In this document: positions 21,332 to 26,459 of the stretch, piece by piece
Layout: every line of letters starts with the position of its first letter
Position numbering within the stretch: position 1 is the first letter of the stretch
Notes under the pieces: model-generated
Seen by the model: only the letters and a program-made list of their open reading frames with translations
Told to the model about the DNA's origin: nothing
Database searches by the model: none
Program-made: the position numbers and the translations under genes
Source of the DNA: Fimbriimonadaceae bacterium
GTDB lineage: Bacteria > Armatimonadota > Fimbriimonadia > Fimbriimonadales > Fimbriimonadaceae
Assembly (NCBI GenBank): GCA_019454105.1
Contig: CP075364.1
Coordinates: 2,483,362 to 2,547,361, forward strand
Length of the DNA: 64,000 nucleotides
Reading direction: 5' to 3'

Positions 21332-21736
21332 CTAGTGTGTGACCTTGCGGCCCAATGCCTTGGCCTGCTCGATCCAGTCGGCTACTTCAGAGGCGCTCGG
21401 CAACCGGTTCGTCAAATTTTTCGCCTCGTTGACCTCAGCCATTTTGGCGTGGAGGTTCTCGGCGTTGCGTTGCGCGAGTTCCGGCACTGAGTCTACGCCC
21501 GCATGCTCCAGGAGGTCGGAGAACTGACCAGCAACGCCCTTGATCCGGGCAAGGTCGGCGCGGTTGACCCACTCCAGAACGAGGGTCTCGCTGATCCCGG
21601 TTTTCTCGGCGATCTCTTCCCGGCCCTTCTTCGTGGCACCGGCCTCGAGCAGCTGCTCTTCCGTCTTGATGCCAGCCGCTTCAAGCTTGGTGCCGTACGC
21701 GGGCCCAATCCCTTCGATCTCAATGACGTTTGCCAT
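21332..21736 (-). CDS. DUF4332 helix-hairpin-helix protein
   Basis: A 134-residue protein opening with IEGIGPAYGTKLEAAGI, a helix-hairpin-helix motif, and a second copy at ADLARIKGVAGQFSDLLEHAGV. The two repeats match the DUF4332 family, thought to bind nucleic acid non-specifically. ATG at 21736. First gene of a three-gene minus run with the Rieske oxygenase and DUF423; no functional link to them is obvious. Confidence 0.8.
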   Translation of the reverse strand: MANVIEIEGIGPAYGTKLEAAGIKTEEQLLEAGATKKGREEIAEKTGISETLVLEWVNRADLARIKGVAGQFSDLLEHAGVDSVPELAQRNAENLHAKMAEVNEAKNLTNRLPSASEVADWIEQAKALGRKVTH

Positions 21737-21843: not shown

Positions 21844-22356
21844 ATGAGAAAGTTCAAGAACCTGACCGCCCTCTTCGGATGGTGCGCGTTCGCACTTGGG
21901 ACAGTCGGCATTCTCGCTGGCGTCTATCAATGCACGCTCGGCTCCTGCTTCCAACAGGACACTTGGGAGACCGCCCAAGGTCGAATCGCACAAGCCAGGA
22001 TCGCCGCGGAGGCGAGCCCCGGTACGGCCCGCGAGTTCTCCTGGCGGATCCAGTACGTCGTCATGACCGACAGCCGAGTCCTGACCGTCGAGGACGATCG
22101 GTCGTTCAACGGTGAGGCCGAAGCCACAAGATGGGCTTCAAACGCGGTCGGGTCAGTAAGGACGGTCAGGATCGATCCCTCGCAACCTGGGCATGGGGAG
22201 TTCACCTCAACTTCAGTGTTGCCCCGAGGGTTGCTGGCCCTCCTCTTGACCTCGGTCGGGGTCGCCTTGTTGCTCGCGTCCACGTTTCGTCAGTTCACCA
22301 AGAGTCACGGTGCGACCCACGTGGCGCCCTCTGGCGTGAACCTGGCACGAATGTGA
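21844..22356 (+). CDS. DUF3592-like membrane protein
   Basis: A 170-residue protein with a helix near the N-terminus (~12-30) and another at ~130-150, flanking an extracytoplasmic domain (WETAQGRIAQARI..., FSWRIQYVV, VLTVEDDRSF). This two-helix layout with an immunoglobulin-like middle resembles DUF3592 proteins. Start ATG at 21844; upstream residues lack conserved character. The 3' end overlaps the convergent PNPOx-like gene by 52 bp. Function unknown. Confidence 0.6.
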   Translation: MRKFKNLTALFGWCAFALGTVGILAGVYQCTLGSCFQQDTWETAQGRIAQARIAAEASPGTAREFSWRIQYVVMTDSRVLTVEDDRSFNGEAEATRWASNAVGSVRTVRIDPSQPGHGEFTSTSVLPRGLLALLLTSVGVALLLASTFRQFTKSHGATHVAPSGVNLARM

Positions 22357-22901
22357 CCGGAATAGGCGAGCTTGAGCCAGTCCAACGTCGCGACTTTCAG
22401 CACGATGGCGCCGAAGTATGGGTAACCATGCTCGGCTTCCTCGTCCGTCGGATCGCGGCCTGAGAGATCGCTCGGCAAGTTCACGGTCGGCTTGTCAGAG
22501 GGCGTTCCGGGAGCAACCGGCGCCAAGTAGCACTTGCGGCTGGATAGCCGACTTGATGTCCAGCGGGCTCTCCGAGCGGCCTCGTCCGCCCATTCGGCTT
22601 GGCCTTGGACTCTGACCTGAACCTTCTCAGAAGGGTCGTAGAAGAGGGCGGCCAGAGGTCCGGGCACGAATGTGGCTTTCGGACTGCGCAAGTCGGTGTG
22701 AAAGCAAAGCGTCCCGGCCCAGCGGTCGGCATGGCGCAACACGACGTTCCTCACGTCCGGTTGGGGAGTCGCCAAAGCCGCCAGGCGCCAAGGGTGGCGG
22801 TGCGAGGCGACGGCCTGTTCGAGCCCGTCCCAAACACTCTCCCAGATGTCGTCGAGCGATCCGGGTGTCGGGAGAGGCTGTGCGTCAGTCCCGTCTTTCA
22901 A
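22305..22901 (-). CDS. Pyridoxamine 5'-phosphate oxidase-like FMN-binding protein
   Basis: A 198-residue split-barrel protein. RLAALATPQPDVRNVVLRHAD and LCFHTDLRSPKATFVPG are the FMN-phosphate binding strands of PNPOx-like flavoproteins, followed by ALFYDPSEKVQVRVQGQAEW and the C-terminal LDWLKL and RARF strands. These oxidise pyridoxamine phosphate or act as general flavin oxidoreductases; PdxH proper usually ends R-x-P, which is absent, so I do not call pdxH. The TTG start at 22899-22901 overlaps the ccmC stop (TTGA). It sits last in the ccm run. Confidence 0.75.
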   Translation of the reverse strand: MKDGTDAQPLPTPGSLDDIWESVWDGLEQAVASHRHPWRLAALATPQPDVRNVVLRHADRWAGTLCFHTDLRSPKATFVPGPLAALFYDPSEKVQVRVQGQAEWADEAARRARWTSSRLSSRKCYLAPVAPGTPSDKPTVNLPSDLSGRDPTDEEAEHGYPYFGAIVLKVATLDWLKLAYSGHIRARFTPEGATWVAP

Positions 22902-22998
22902 GCGCCCTCAGTCGGCGGTCGAGACTCCTGAGGTACCACCACAAGCCGCCCAACACCAGCAGGGGCGGAACTGCCATCGAGAGTCGTGTCCAGTCCAT
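22885..22998 (-). CDS. ccmD: CcmD-like small heme-exporter subunit, overlapping ccmC out of frame
   Basis: A 37-residue reading frame in a different phase from ccmC. It starts ATG at 22996-22998 and stops TGA at 22885-22887. The sequence has one membrane helix (SMAVPPLLVLGGLWWYLR) followed by a basic amphipathic tail (SLDRRLRALERRD), the standard CcmD plan, and it lies directly where ccmD is expected after ccmC. CcmD helps release holo-CcmE from the CcmABC complex. It overlaps the last ~100 bp of the ccmC frame and the first 17 bp of the PNPOx-like gene. Read by hand from the reverse strand. Confidence 0.7.
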   Translation of the reverse strand: MDWTRLSMAVPPLLVLGGLWWYLRSLDRRLRALERRD

Positions 22999-23650
22999 AG
23001 TCTTTCGTCCATGCTTCGGCCTCACTGATCTTGACTCTGAGCCGGTAAAGACCGACCGCGAAGACCGCTAAGGCCAAGAAAGTGCCGTACATCCCCACTC
23101 GGTACCAAGCGTCAAGCTGTCCCTCCGCGATCGTCTGGGTGGGATGGAACGAGGCCTGCTTGACCGCTGGTAGTCGTGGAAACACAAAAGTCAGGAACGT
23201 CGCGGGGAGGACGATCGCCAGCGAGTAGGCCGCGCAGGCCCGTGAGCGCCGGTCGCCGTCGGATAGCCCCGTCCTGAGAGCGAGGGCCGCCGCGAACAAA
23301 AGGACGACCATCAGGAACGACGTTTGGCGCGGATCCCAGTGCCACCAATCGCCCCACTGGACGCGGCTGAAGAAGATGCCCGTCACCAGGGTGAGCACCG
23401 AGAACAGAAGCCCCAGTTCGGTCGCCGCCGCCACTCCCCTGTCGTAGCGCGGTTGACCCGTGCGCAAGAACCGGTACCCAAGCCAACCCGCCGCGAAGAG
23501 GAAGAGGGTGGCCAGGAACGCGTTCGGAACGTGGAAGAAGAGCGTCCGGGCCAGGGCCGGCTCGGCGAAGACTTTGGCGTCCGGCACCACGAAGTAGTAG
23601 CCCGTCATCAGGGCCAGTAGCGCCGCGCCGGTCGCGAGCCAAGCACGCAT
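22898..23650 (-). CDS. ccmC: Heme exporter/cytochrome c biogenesis protein CcmC
   Basis: A 250-residue protein with six membrane helices and the tryptophan-rich heme-handling motif WGDWWHWDPRQTSFL near residue 110, plus flanking periplasmic His residues (FFHVPNAF and SFHPTQT). CcmC delivers heme to CcmE in system I cytochrome c maturation at the inner membrane. The last helix ends at about residue 210; the remaining ~40 residues are unusual and overlap the ccmD frame, so either the two genes truly overlap or a frameshift extends ccmC. It follows ccmB after 10 bp. Confidence 0.9.
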   Translation of the reverse strand: MRAWLATGAALLALMTGYYFVVPDAKVFAEPALARTLFFHVPNAFLATLFLFAAGWLGYRFLRTGQPRYDRGVAAATELGLLFSVLTLVTGIFFSRVQWGDWWHWDPRQTSFLMVVLLFAAALALRTGLSDGDRRSRACAAYSLAIVLPATFLTFVFPRLPAVKQASFHPTQTIAEGQLDAWYRVGMYGTFLALAVFAVGLYRLRVKISEAEAWTKDYGLDTTLDGSSAPAGVGRLVVVPQESRPPTEGA

Positions 23651-23660
23651 GGAAGTCTTT

Positions 23661-24344
23661 CTATTCTGGCCGGACCGGGCCTGACTCCAGCTTCCAGACC
23701 TGGGAGGCGATCCAGGGGGAGCCTGCCAGCGAGGCGAGGGCCCAGCCCGCCAGTCCGGCCAGAGATTGAAATCCGCCCTCTAAGGAACCTCCGCCTAATG
23801 CGACCCTGAGGCATCCCACAGCCAGAAACTGGAGCGGCAACACGGCGGGAAGGCCCAGCACGGCGACGAGAAGCCACTTGTTCTCGGCCCCGAGAACAAT
23901 GGCGCCGCACAGACTTGTCGCCGTCGCCATACCGACCGCCGTCAGGGCCAAGCCCATGGCGAACAATCCTCCATGGACGACCGGGACGCCGGTGAGGGCG
24001 ACGAAAACGGTCGCCAGCGAAGCGGCCACGACCAGTGCCGCCGCGACCGAGAAGAGCATCTTGCCCGAATAGACCGGCTCAGGACGGGCCACCGACCGGA
24101 TGAGGTCGAAGGTGCTCTGGTCGTCCTCGGCCAAGAAAGTCCTTGGCAAGGTCGCGACGGTGGCGAACGCGAGGGCGACGCAAAGCATCCCGGCTGCGAG
24201 GCCAGGGCCGGGACGCTGGCCGAAGCTGGCGAACGAGACGGCGACGACGGTCACGACCGAGAACAGCAACCCAGAGAACAGGGCTTGCGGCGAGCGGGAC
24301 TCGACGAGCCACTCTTTCTTGAGGACGGAGAGGGTCTCACGCAT
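23661..24344 (-). CDS. ccmB: Heme exporter permease CcmB
   Basis: A 227-residue permease with six hydrophobic helices. The opening VLKKEWLVESRSPQALFSGLLFSVVTVVAVSFA and the following LPRTFLAEDDQSTFDLIRSVARPEPVYSGKML loop are the CcmB signature; LPLQFLAVGCLR is in the fifth helix. With CcmA it forms the ATP-driven part of the CcmABCD complex that frees holo-CcmE. The start overlaps the ccmA stop by 8 bp, and ccmC follows closely, so an operon is clear. Confidence 0.9.
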   Translation of the reverse strand: MRETLSVLKKEWLVESRSPQALFSGLLFSVVTVVAVSFASFGQRPGPGLAAGMLCVALAFATVATLPRTFLAEDDQSTFDLIRSVARPEPVYSGKMLFSVAAALVVAASLATVFVALTGVPVVHGGLFAMGLALTAVGMATATSLCGAIVLGAENKWLLVAVLGLPAVLPLQFLAVGCLRVALGGGSLEGGFQSLAGLAGWALASLAGSPWIASQVWKLESGPVRPE

Positions 24345-24948
24345 CGAAGGCGAGCCTGTGGGTGGCGTGCTCGAGGTCGCGGGGGTCGTTCGTGGCGAGT
24401 ACGGCCGCCCCCTTGGTCAGGTGAGTGCGAAGAAGCGAGCCGACGACCGACCGGCCCGAATCGTCGAGCGAGGCCGACGGTTCGTCGAGCAAGAGCAGGC
24501 GGGGCTGGTGGAGTGTCGCAAGCAAAAGCTTCAGCCTCGCGCGGGTGCCGGTGCTCAACTCACCAGCCGGGCGGTCGAGCGACGGACTCAGCCCGACCGA
24601 GTCGGCCCAAGCCTCGGGCCTCGGAACGACCTGACGCAGGGTCGCGAACAGGTCCAGGTGCTCGCGGACGGTGAGCTGGGGATAGAGGGACTGGTCGAGG
24701 ACGAAGAGACCTGTCTCCTCGGCGGGCGGCCCGGATAGACGGCCTTCGGTCGGGGCGAGGAGCCGGGCGAGGAGCTTGATCAGCGTGGATTTTCCCGACC
24801 CGTTCGGCCCTGAAAGGACGAGGCACTCGCCCGCCTTGAGTTCGAACGAGAGTCCCCGAACAACCCAACGGCTCCCGAAGCGCCGCCCGACTCCTTGGAG
24901 CAGAAGCACTCGGCCAGTATGCCTCTCCCACAGTCCCGAGCGGACCAA
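24337..24948 (-). CDS. ccmA: Heme exporter ATP-binding protein CcmA
   Basis: A 203-residue ABC ATPase, short like other CcmA proteins. Walker A is GPNGSGKST (~46-54), the signature is degenerate (LSTGTRARLKL instead of LSGGQ), as is common in CcmA, and Walker B is LLLLDEPSASLD; a loop ATNDPRDL replaces the usual switch-His loop. It supplies ATP hydrolysis to CcmB. First of ccmABCD; preceded after 12 bp by a gene for a secreted unknown. Confidence 0.85.
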   Translation of the reverse strand: MVRSGLWERHTGRVLLLQGVGRRFGSRWVVRGLSFELKAGECLVLSGPNGSGKSTLIKLLARLLAPTEGRLSGPPAEETGLFVLDQSLYPQLTVREHLDLFATLRQVVPRPEAWADSVGLSPSLDRPAGELSTGTRARLKLLLATLHQPRLLLLDEPSASLDDSGRSVVGSLLRTHLTKGAAVLATNDPRDLEHATHRLAFDA

Positions 24949-24960
24949 ACGGTCGGTCGC

Positions 24961-25980
24961 CTAGGGACCCCGCAGTTCCCGAATCTCGAACCCGTGCTTT
25001 CCCATCCAGAGGACTTCGATGTTCTTGCTCCATTGGGCGACTCGGAGGCTGCTTACGAAAGCTTGGCGTTCGGCCAGCGGTCTGTCCTTGAACCGGTGGT
25101 CCAAAATCGAGTCGACGGCTGCCCGCCACTGGGGGCTGAGGTCGCCGTAGAGGTCTCCGACTTCAGGCAATTGGCCGCCAACCTTTTCAAGGATGGCACG
25201 GGACGCGTCGTCCAGGGCTTGTCTTGCCTTGTCGACTTGGGTGGCGGTCCGCTCGAACTCATCGGCAACGAAGTTGGCGATCGTTCTGAGATCTTTCGCC
25301 CTTTGCCTGGGGTCGTTCGCTCCGTCTCCGGTGGCCGTGAGAGCTAAGCGGCCGATGGGCAGGATTTCAGCGACTTGCCCGGGGACCGCCTGAGGCGGGG
25401 CTGGCGTTTTGGGAGAGGGTTGGTCGGGCGCTTGGTGGTCTCGCAATTGGGCCATCGTCTCTGGCGGCAATGCCGGCGGAAGATCCACGGCAAGCCATTC
25501 CTTCCCGTCCGTGAGCCAACATCGCCGCACGGGGCCGACGACGACCCTTGTTCCGATTTGGCCAGCGCTCAGTCCGTAGGACTCCTGCACCTGGCTGACG
25601 ATTCCTCTGACTGCGGGGTCCTTTACAGGCAGGCTCGCATCGTCCCCTTTCCAAGCGGCGACCGCGGCCGTGATCCCCTGCACGAGCCGAGATCCTTGGT
25701 CGGCCCTTGTCAGGCGCTTGTCCACGAGGTAGCCACGTTGGTCTCTCGCGAAGAAGTGGAAGACATTCTCGTCGGCCCACTTAACGATGGTTTTCGCATC
25801 CTTTCCAGGCCCGCCAGGGCGAAGGGCCAATGCTTCTGGAACCTTGATCCGTTCTTCGACCTCACTCGCAAAGACGAGCCCAGTCAGGATCGGCGATGGA
25901 CTGTTGTTCAACTGGCCCAACTGGGGAACAAGGGCGGCTAACGACGCGATCAAGCCGAGGCGAGTCGAAGCGACCATCAT
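24961..25980 (-). CDS. Secreted protein of unknown function, upstream of ccmABCD
   Basis: A 339-residue protein with an N-terminal signal peptide-like helix (MMVASTRLGLIASLAALVPQL). I recognise no family. The mature part is charged and helical, with a Pro/Gln-rich linker near residue 190-215 (DQPSPKTPAPPQAVPG) dividing two domains; the second has a long probable coiled coil (FVADEFERTATQVDKARQAL). Cys in RRCWLTDG is single. The start codon overlaps the stop of the upstream gene as ATGA, so the two unknowns are coupled, and ccmA begins 12 bp later, which suggests a place in cytochrome c or electron transport biology. That is inference only. Confidence 0.6.
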   Translation of the reverse strand: MMVASTRLGLIASLAALVPQLGQLNNSPSPILTGLVFASEVEERIKVPEALALRPGGPGKDAKTIVKWADENVFHFFARDQRGYLVDKRLTRADQGSRLVQGITAAVAAWKGDDASLPVKDPAVRGIVSQVQESYGLSAGQIGTRVVVGPVRRCWLTDGKEWLAVDLPPALPPETMAQLRDHQAPDQPSPKTPAPPQAVPGQVAEILPIGRLALTATGDGANDPRQRAKDLRTIANFVADEFERTATQVDKARQALDDASRAILEKVGGQLPEVGDLYGDLSPQWRAAVDSILDHRFKDRPLAERQAFVSSLRVAQWSKNIEVLWMGKHGFEIRELRGP

Positions 25981-26459
25981 TCCGGCTCGCTGTTCGGGAA
26001 GACCCTGTGGCTCCAGACATAGCCGCCGTGCCAATCGCGGTCGCGTCGGTAAGTCGGCCAGAGGAAAGGGTCTTCAGTCCAACTCCACCTCTCGAAACCA
26101 ATCTCCGTCGACCATGTCATGAGCCCGTGCTGGCGGTATCCCGGTTGAAGCCAAAAGCCTTCCCAACCGTATTCAGCCCAAACGGTCTCGTTACTGAGCG
26201 GCGTGAACTTTGCAGTCCAGGGAGCTTCCTCGTTCGTCGAGCCGGAGACCGTTCGCTGTCGCGGGTCATATCCTTCTGTGGTCGGGCGCCACTCCGACAT
26301 CCCGCCCAAATTGGCGAGATCGTCGATCACGTAGTGCTTGATGCCGGTGACGAGCCCGTAGCCCGTGCGCTGCCACCAGTCGGCGCGGGCGAAGCCGGAA
26401 AGGCCCGCCGAAATGAGCATCAGCAGGATTGCCTTCCAGATGTAACTTAAAAGTTTCAT
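25977..26459 (-). CDS. Secreted tryptophan-rich protein of unknown function
   Basis: A 160-residue protein with a clear signal peptide (MKLLSYIWKAILLMLISAGLSGFARA). The mature part is rich in Trp and Tyr (DWWQRTGYGL, EYGWEGFWLQPGY, RWSWTEDPFLWPTYRRDRDWHGGYVWSH), with no cysteine. I know of no family. The longer frame would add 21 residues with no signal character. It heads the run leading into ccmABCD and overlaps the next gene by four bases (ATGA). Aromatic-rich exported proteins can bind sugars or heme; nothing here decides. Confidence 0.55.
   Translation of the reverse strand: MKLLSYIWKAILLMLISAGLSGFARADWWQRTGYGLVTGIKHYVIDDLANLGGMSEWRPTTEGYDPRQRTVSGSTNEEAPWTAKFTPLSNETVWAEYGWEGFWLQPGYRQHGLMTWSTEIGFERWSWTEDPFLWPTYRRDRDWHGGYVWSHRVFPNSEPE

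Follow-up and report, generated by a model that had tools for sequence, protein, structure and literature searches.

The ccmC and ccmD genes of Escherichia coli K-12 have the same order and roles as the gene pair treated here, and ccmD likewise follows ccmC on one strand and overlaps it. The overlap is 4 nucleotides (nt) long there, whereas it spans 68-122 nt in Fimbriimonadia, a class of Armatimonadota comprising soil and water bacteria. The pair was studied in a stretch of 64,000 nt from a Fimbriimonadaceae bacterium (GenBank assembly GCA_019454105.1, contig CP075364.1, positions 2,483,362 to 2,547,361), here called the window. A preliminary description of the window had placed a small ccmD over the last ~100 bases of ccmC, and the two genes indeed share 101 nt in different frames.

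The unrelated genes holD and rimI of Enterobacteria also overlap in the same direction, and their overlap is conserved (PMC2478687); the ccmC-ccmD overlap differs in being up to 122 nt long and in that selection was tested in both frames. In Thermus, rnpA and rpmH lie on one strand and use a common stretch of DNA in two frames, but rpmH is fully nested and both starts lie at one initiation site (PMC9841429), whereas the ccmD start lies 65-119 nt upstream of the ccmC end and the gene extends past it. The overlap lengths given above count the ccmC stop codon. Among the papers listed, judged by title and opening of the abstract, none reported the ccmC-ccmD overlap of Fimbriimonadia; the literature searched excluded most subscription journals. 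Judged from the sequences compared, the genes themselves are ordinary, and what we regard as unusual is their state, a real, class-wide, dual-coding overlap.

Distribution of the ccmC-ccmD overlap

The comparison set consisted of 144 non-redundant ccmC loci, 102 from Fimbriimonadia and 42 from the outgroup. In 98 of the 102 class loci, ccmD lies in frame +1 over the end of ccmC, with a median overlap of 86 nt. The ccmD starts of these 98 loci are ATG (92), GTG (4) or TTG (2), and the ccmD profile matched with E below 1e-10 in 94, between 1e-10 and 1e-3 in L008 and L168, and more weakly in L082 and L118. A ccmD candidate was found in 39 of the 42 outgroup loci, two of them weak (L121 and L216, both E 0.05), and there the overlap never exceeded 22 nt. 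Counted from the ccmC stop, 36 of these 39 candidates have their start between -19 and +46, with 12 at -1, and the other three begin at +79, +265 and +395. In a ccmC tree of 142 sequences, the 100 class sequences formed one clade (support 0.923). Conservation among orthologues, a mark of a true co-directional overlapping pair, was found in 98 of 102 class loci, and comparison shows the long overlap to be confined to Fimbriimonadia among the loci examined.

The preliminary description had left open whether the locus is dual-coding or holds a frameshifted ccmC. A frameshift or misassembly in the source genome, with the true ccmC end elsewhere, would agree with the lack of resemblance of the overlapped residues to E. 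coli CcmC, and most long co-directional overlaps of older annotations have been judged errors (PMC2478687). Nevertheless, a frameshift or sequencing error confined to one genome is hard to reconcile with the same +1 relation in 98 of 102 class loci; this explanation was rejected on that recurrence, and we give it practically no chance. The remark that the overlapped residues are unlike CcmC holds against the E. coli protein but not within the class, where they are conserved.

Four class loci depart from the pattern. In L006 and L123, ccmD has moved 174 kb and 17 kb away from ccmC, in the latter case to a place just before an open reading frame (ORF) read by eye as CcmE. The relocated genes stand alone at L241:1498-1731 (genome G026) and L242:1486-1659 (genome G008); one adjoins an unrelated dehydrogenase and a prepilin-like gene, and the other directly precedes the CcmE-like ORF. 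In L081, ccmD starts 6 nt past the ccmC stop. Its sister L082 has overlapping genes, and the two loci differ in frame relation, which points to a small insertion or deletion close to the junction, or else to an error of assembly. A conserved ccmC tail with a disrupted ccmD frame, the case named in the preliminary description as counter-evidence, occurs only in L021, where the search for ccmD gave no hit better than E 0.43-0.6 and the CcmC tail retains VVRPVPV.

The ccmC gene was detected in 102 of the 113 class genomes and in 226 of the 291 genomes of the phylum search (class included; some matches weak only). A search for related loci with a single ccmC query returned none, and with an alignment as query it returned 65 loci. 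The outgroup was assembled from 40 loci of the phylum-search genomes together with L115-L117 and L120-L122, which left 42 after removal of duplicates; L173 was omitted for want of a ccmC profile match. Locus L121, titled Fimbriimonadaceae bacterium, has no match to a class genome, its ccmC lies outside the class clade and lacks the long overlap, and its ccmD candidate is weak; it was placed in the outgroup by hand, as was L122. Locus L108, titled Methanoregulaceae archaeon, carries ccmC DNA identical to that of L058 from a genome of the Fimbriimonadia family, and is probably a mislabelled or mixed assembly. The 1.5 Mb genome G028 (genus g29), given as 97% complete, had no ccmC match, and its genus mate G093 has both ccmC and ccmD; System I was possibly lost recently in G028.

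Constraint on the two reading frames

The small frame of the window sits where the preliminary description expected ccmD and encodes 37 amino acids, modelled as one helix (residues 3-36, mean predicted local distance difference test (pLDDT) 89.5). Its product has one predicted membrane helix and a basic cytosolic end, a topology taken from charge only, and is encoded after ccmB and ccmC. Family profile A2, of which the window ccmD is itself a member, recovers it in its own genome with E 2.1e-16. The class loci include two families, f1 with the CcmC tail motif VVRPVxV, to which the window belongs, and f2 with the motif VGW. The closest described CcmD family is CcmD_alt (TIGR04391 / PF20077): one f2 CcmD scores 38.9 bits, over the cut-off of 24, whereas one f1 CcmD scores 19.5 bits, under the cut-off. 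TIGR04391 matched 36 and PF20077 matched 8 of 67 aligned CcmD sequences (E 0.01). Comparison of the CcmD profile with solved structures gave coiled-coil matches only (E 0.15 or worse). At the nucleotide level, the second positions of ccmD codons coincide with the third positions of ccmC codons. In sister pairs, ccmC third positions differ at 59 of 650 sites in the overlap versus 1848 of 4496 in the ccmC body.

Shine-Dalgarno matches of at least 4 bases precede 61 of the 98 ccmD starts, versus 15% of same-phase positions in the ccmC body and 47 of 200 same-phase ATGs. For matches of at least 5 bases, the counts are 47 of 98 versus 540 of 16876 body positions (3%) and 6 of 200 same-phase ATGs. 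This enrichment bears on the idea that programmed frameshifting, and not a start of its own, yields CcmD as a CcmC-CcmD fusion. The +1 relation permits such a fusion in principle, and 40 of the 98 starts lack a Shine-Dalgarno match of at least 4 bases. However, besides the enrichment, the start codon stands at the same aligned place, is ATG in 92 of 98 loci, and ccmD stands alone in two genomes, so that we hold a fusion to be almost certainly wrong.

Within the overlap, the third bases of ccmD codons are the first bases of ccmC codons, and selection on the ccmC frame can be read from them. Seventy-one of the 79 f1 loci had a ccmD with E < 1e-10, and 50 representatives below 65% identity were used. 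Five overlap columns were far off codon usage (z 4.3-8.2): A in 15 loci (3.4 expected), G in 45 of 49 (18.1), C in 45 of 50 (31.5), C in 46 of 50 (20.2) and G in 41 of 50 (23.6), the strongest being G 45/49 (z 8.2) and C 46/50 (z 7.6). By the same measure, 203 ccmC-body columns had a 99th percentile of 3.8 and a maximum of 4.5. The overlap differed from the ccmC body (p 4e-9), and ccmD columns past the overlap did not (p 0.15). When the set was narrowed to 35 loci (identity below 55%), four key columns out of five remained above the body 99th percentile.

Other measures point the same way. Identity of the ccmC frame in the overlap was z 19.6 above synonymous resampling, compared with -0.2 in ccmD past the overlap and -0.7 to 4.2 in 14 ccmC-body windows. 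Over 23 disjoint sister pairs, four-fold sites differ at 50 of 273 in the overlap, 880 of 1969 in the ccmC body (Fisher p 7e-18, overlap versus body) and 31 of 80 in ccmD past the overlap. In f2, the third base giving the CcmC tryptophan is T in 14 of 14 loci (10 GCT, 4 GTT), with GCT expected in 2-18% of alanine codons, and GGA is present in 12 of 14; these 14 loci are partly close relatives, six being below 80% identity. VVRPV is present in 39 of 71 f1 CcmC tails. The bias in ccmD codon choice runs in the direction that retains the CcmC tail motif, VVRPV in f1 and VGW in f2.

Several observations weigh against selection on both frames. The CcmD of the window, taken alone, matches no CcmD family model (TIGR04391, PF20077), its gene is among those without a Shine-Dalgarno match of at least 4 bases, and the CcmC tail motif of the window, VGRLVVV, is a divergent form of VVRPVxV. 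Among 19 loci below 50% identity, two of the five key columns fall under the body 99th percentile (three stay above). The resampling null is not perfect, because some body windows exceed it too (mean z 1.9). Purifying selection was found in both frames, but one sub-test, which asked if changes at third bases of the overlap tend to be conservative when read in the ccmC frame, was not significant (p 0.06, 0.10). The CcmC tail is dispensable in some lineages, since its motif is lost in L006 and L123, where ccmD moved away, and the tail is cut off in L081.

These losses would suit an overlap in which only ccmD codes and the CcmC tail is an unselected by-product reaching to the next stop. So would the low confidence of the modelled tail (pLDDT 51-57), which follows a helix with its end at residue 217, and the probability that the ccmC frame stays open over ccmD by chance, which is 0.74 in the window and has a median of 0.81 over 50 loci, given the ccmD protein and codon usage. 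What exceeds chance is the class-wide conservation of both frames, not the open ccmC frame by itself. A by-product tail does not account for ccmD synonymous codon choice that is strongly shaped within the overlap but not beyond it, for slowed four-fold sites, for rare alanine codons kept in f2, or for the motif of L021, where no ccmD was found. The third-base constraint largely refutes the by-product, and we consider it very unlikely.

The constraint could also act at the nucleotide level, through an RNA structure, a regulatory site or a translation signal, and not through the CcmC tail protein. The non-significant test of conservative change and the drift of tails once ccmD moves away would agree with this. 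However, there was no structure signal in the overlap: the mean folding z was +0.39 over 50 loci, and the consensus fold, computed from 28 columns of a codon alignment with gaps, was empty. The favoured third bases also differ by family (C-C in f1, T-A in f2), spelling different CcmC residues, and L021 shares RPVxVS in the ccmC frame with its sister L008 despite four third-position differences. A nucleotide-level constraint is accordingly given little weight, as a very improbable account of the third bases. The preferred reading, dual coding with selection on both frames, is very probable on these comparisons, in line with the first of the two options of the preliminary description.

The locus in the window

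The source genome is a single contig of 2.74 Mb, and the features of the locus are listed in Table 1. The CcmC of the window is a System I CcmC by its sequence matches. It scores 61.6 bits with Pfam Cytochrom_C_asm (PF01578), above the cut-off, and 78.8 bits with TIGR01191, below the curated cut-off of 186, and the CcmC family profile matches the CcmC structure 7f02 in PDB (E 2.3e-18). Its tryptophan-rich motif QWGDWWHWDPRQTSF occupies residues 98-112, with W99, W103 and D106 invariant in 29 sequences. The tryptophan-rich heme motif of CcmC has the form WGxWWxWDxR. The CcmC heme motif is given as WxWD in PMC10457321.

Table 1. Features of the ccm locus and its surroundings in the window
Feature	Position	Strand	Remarks
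DUF4332 helix-hairpin-helix protein	21332-21736		strong match; downstream of ccm genes
PNPOx-like gene, longest form	22305..22901	minus	TTG start at 22901, start uncertain; Pyridox_oxase_2 32.5 bits
ccmD	22885..22998	minus	37 codons + stop; starts with ATG; +1 frame with respect to ccmC
ccmC	22898..23650	minus	250 codons + stop; final 33 codons + stop within overlap
dual-coding overlap ccmC/ccmD (probable)	22898..22998	minus	101 nt
CcmC tail motif codons (VGRLVVV)	22934..22954	minus	read over ccmD membrane-helix codons
ccmB	23661..24344	minus	PF03379, 43.8 bits
ccmA-like ABC ATPase	24337..24948	minus	TIGR01189 105.3 bits, below cut-off 131.6
357-aa ORF	24961-26034		upstream of ccmA; no Pfam family above cut-off

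The remaining System I parts are present as well, because the CcmE and CcmF families were found in the same genome, ~1.7 Mb from the ccmABCD locus. The preliminary description had ccmD also covering the start of the PNPOx-like gene. This applies, with 17 nt in common at the ccmD end, to the longest form of that ORF, which has an uncertain TTG start.

Proposed origin and meaning of the overlap

Measured from a shared SxHP landmark, the class medians (86 loci) are 157 nt for the ccmD start and 237 nt for the ccmC stop, and the outgroup medians (27 loci) are 183 and 172 nt. The ccmC stop of the class is thus ~65 nt further downstream and the ccmD start ~26 nt earlier, which fits the loss of the ccmC stop, perhaps with a small deletion. 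Most likely, ccmC lost its stop codon once, in the class ancestor, and ran into ccmD. Translation of ccmC would then have continued, in another frame, over roughly two thirds of the already existing ccmD, counted from its start. In simulations, overlaps arise more often when the upstream gene is lengthened at its 3' end (PMC3887535). In this way CcmC would have acquired a tail that is cytosolic, probably disordered, and marked by a short motif (VVRPVxV or VGW). Selection would then keep the tail, with the same DNA coding for it and for the membrane helix of CcmD.

We infer that ccmC and ccmD are translated as two proteins, the second by internal initiation. Ordinary termination-reinitiation works at overlaps of 1-4 nt (PMC10666635); with a ccmD start 65-119 nt before the ccmC stop, it cannot apply unchanged. 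Instead, ccmD would have an initiation codon of its own within ccmC, in many loci preceded by a Shine-Dalgarno sequence that consists of ccmC codons.

CcmCD is proposed to be a heme channel whose cytosolic acceptance site consists of CcmC helices 4-6 and CcmD (PMC12077264). Because of this proposed site, it is plausible that the CcmC tail acts at the cytosolic face beside CcmD. We put forward only tentatively, at somewhat less than even chances, that the tail is a class-wide segment born by overprinting ccmD and now has a function in the heme transporter, on its cytosolic side. If this is true, one set of nucleotides constrains two partner subunits of a single complex, which then have to evolve jointly.

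The ccmC-ccmD pair of Fimbriimonadia is a rare, well-supported case of a long gene overlap in bacteria, kept at 68-122 nt through a class with selection measurable on both frames. A ccmD lying inside ccmC may be lost in annotation. Through the natural exceptions, in which ccmD is relocated, abuts ccmC or was not found beside a kept motif, the costs and benefits of dual coding can be put to the test. The case indicates that a conserved protein tail can be gained by the loss of a stop codon.
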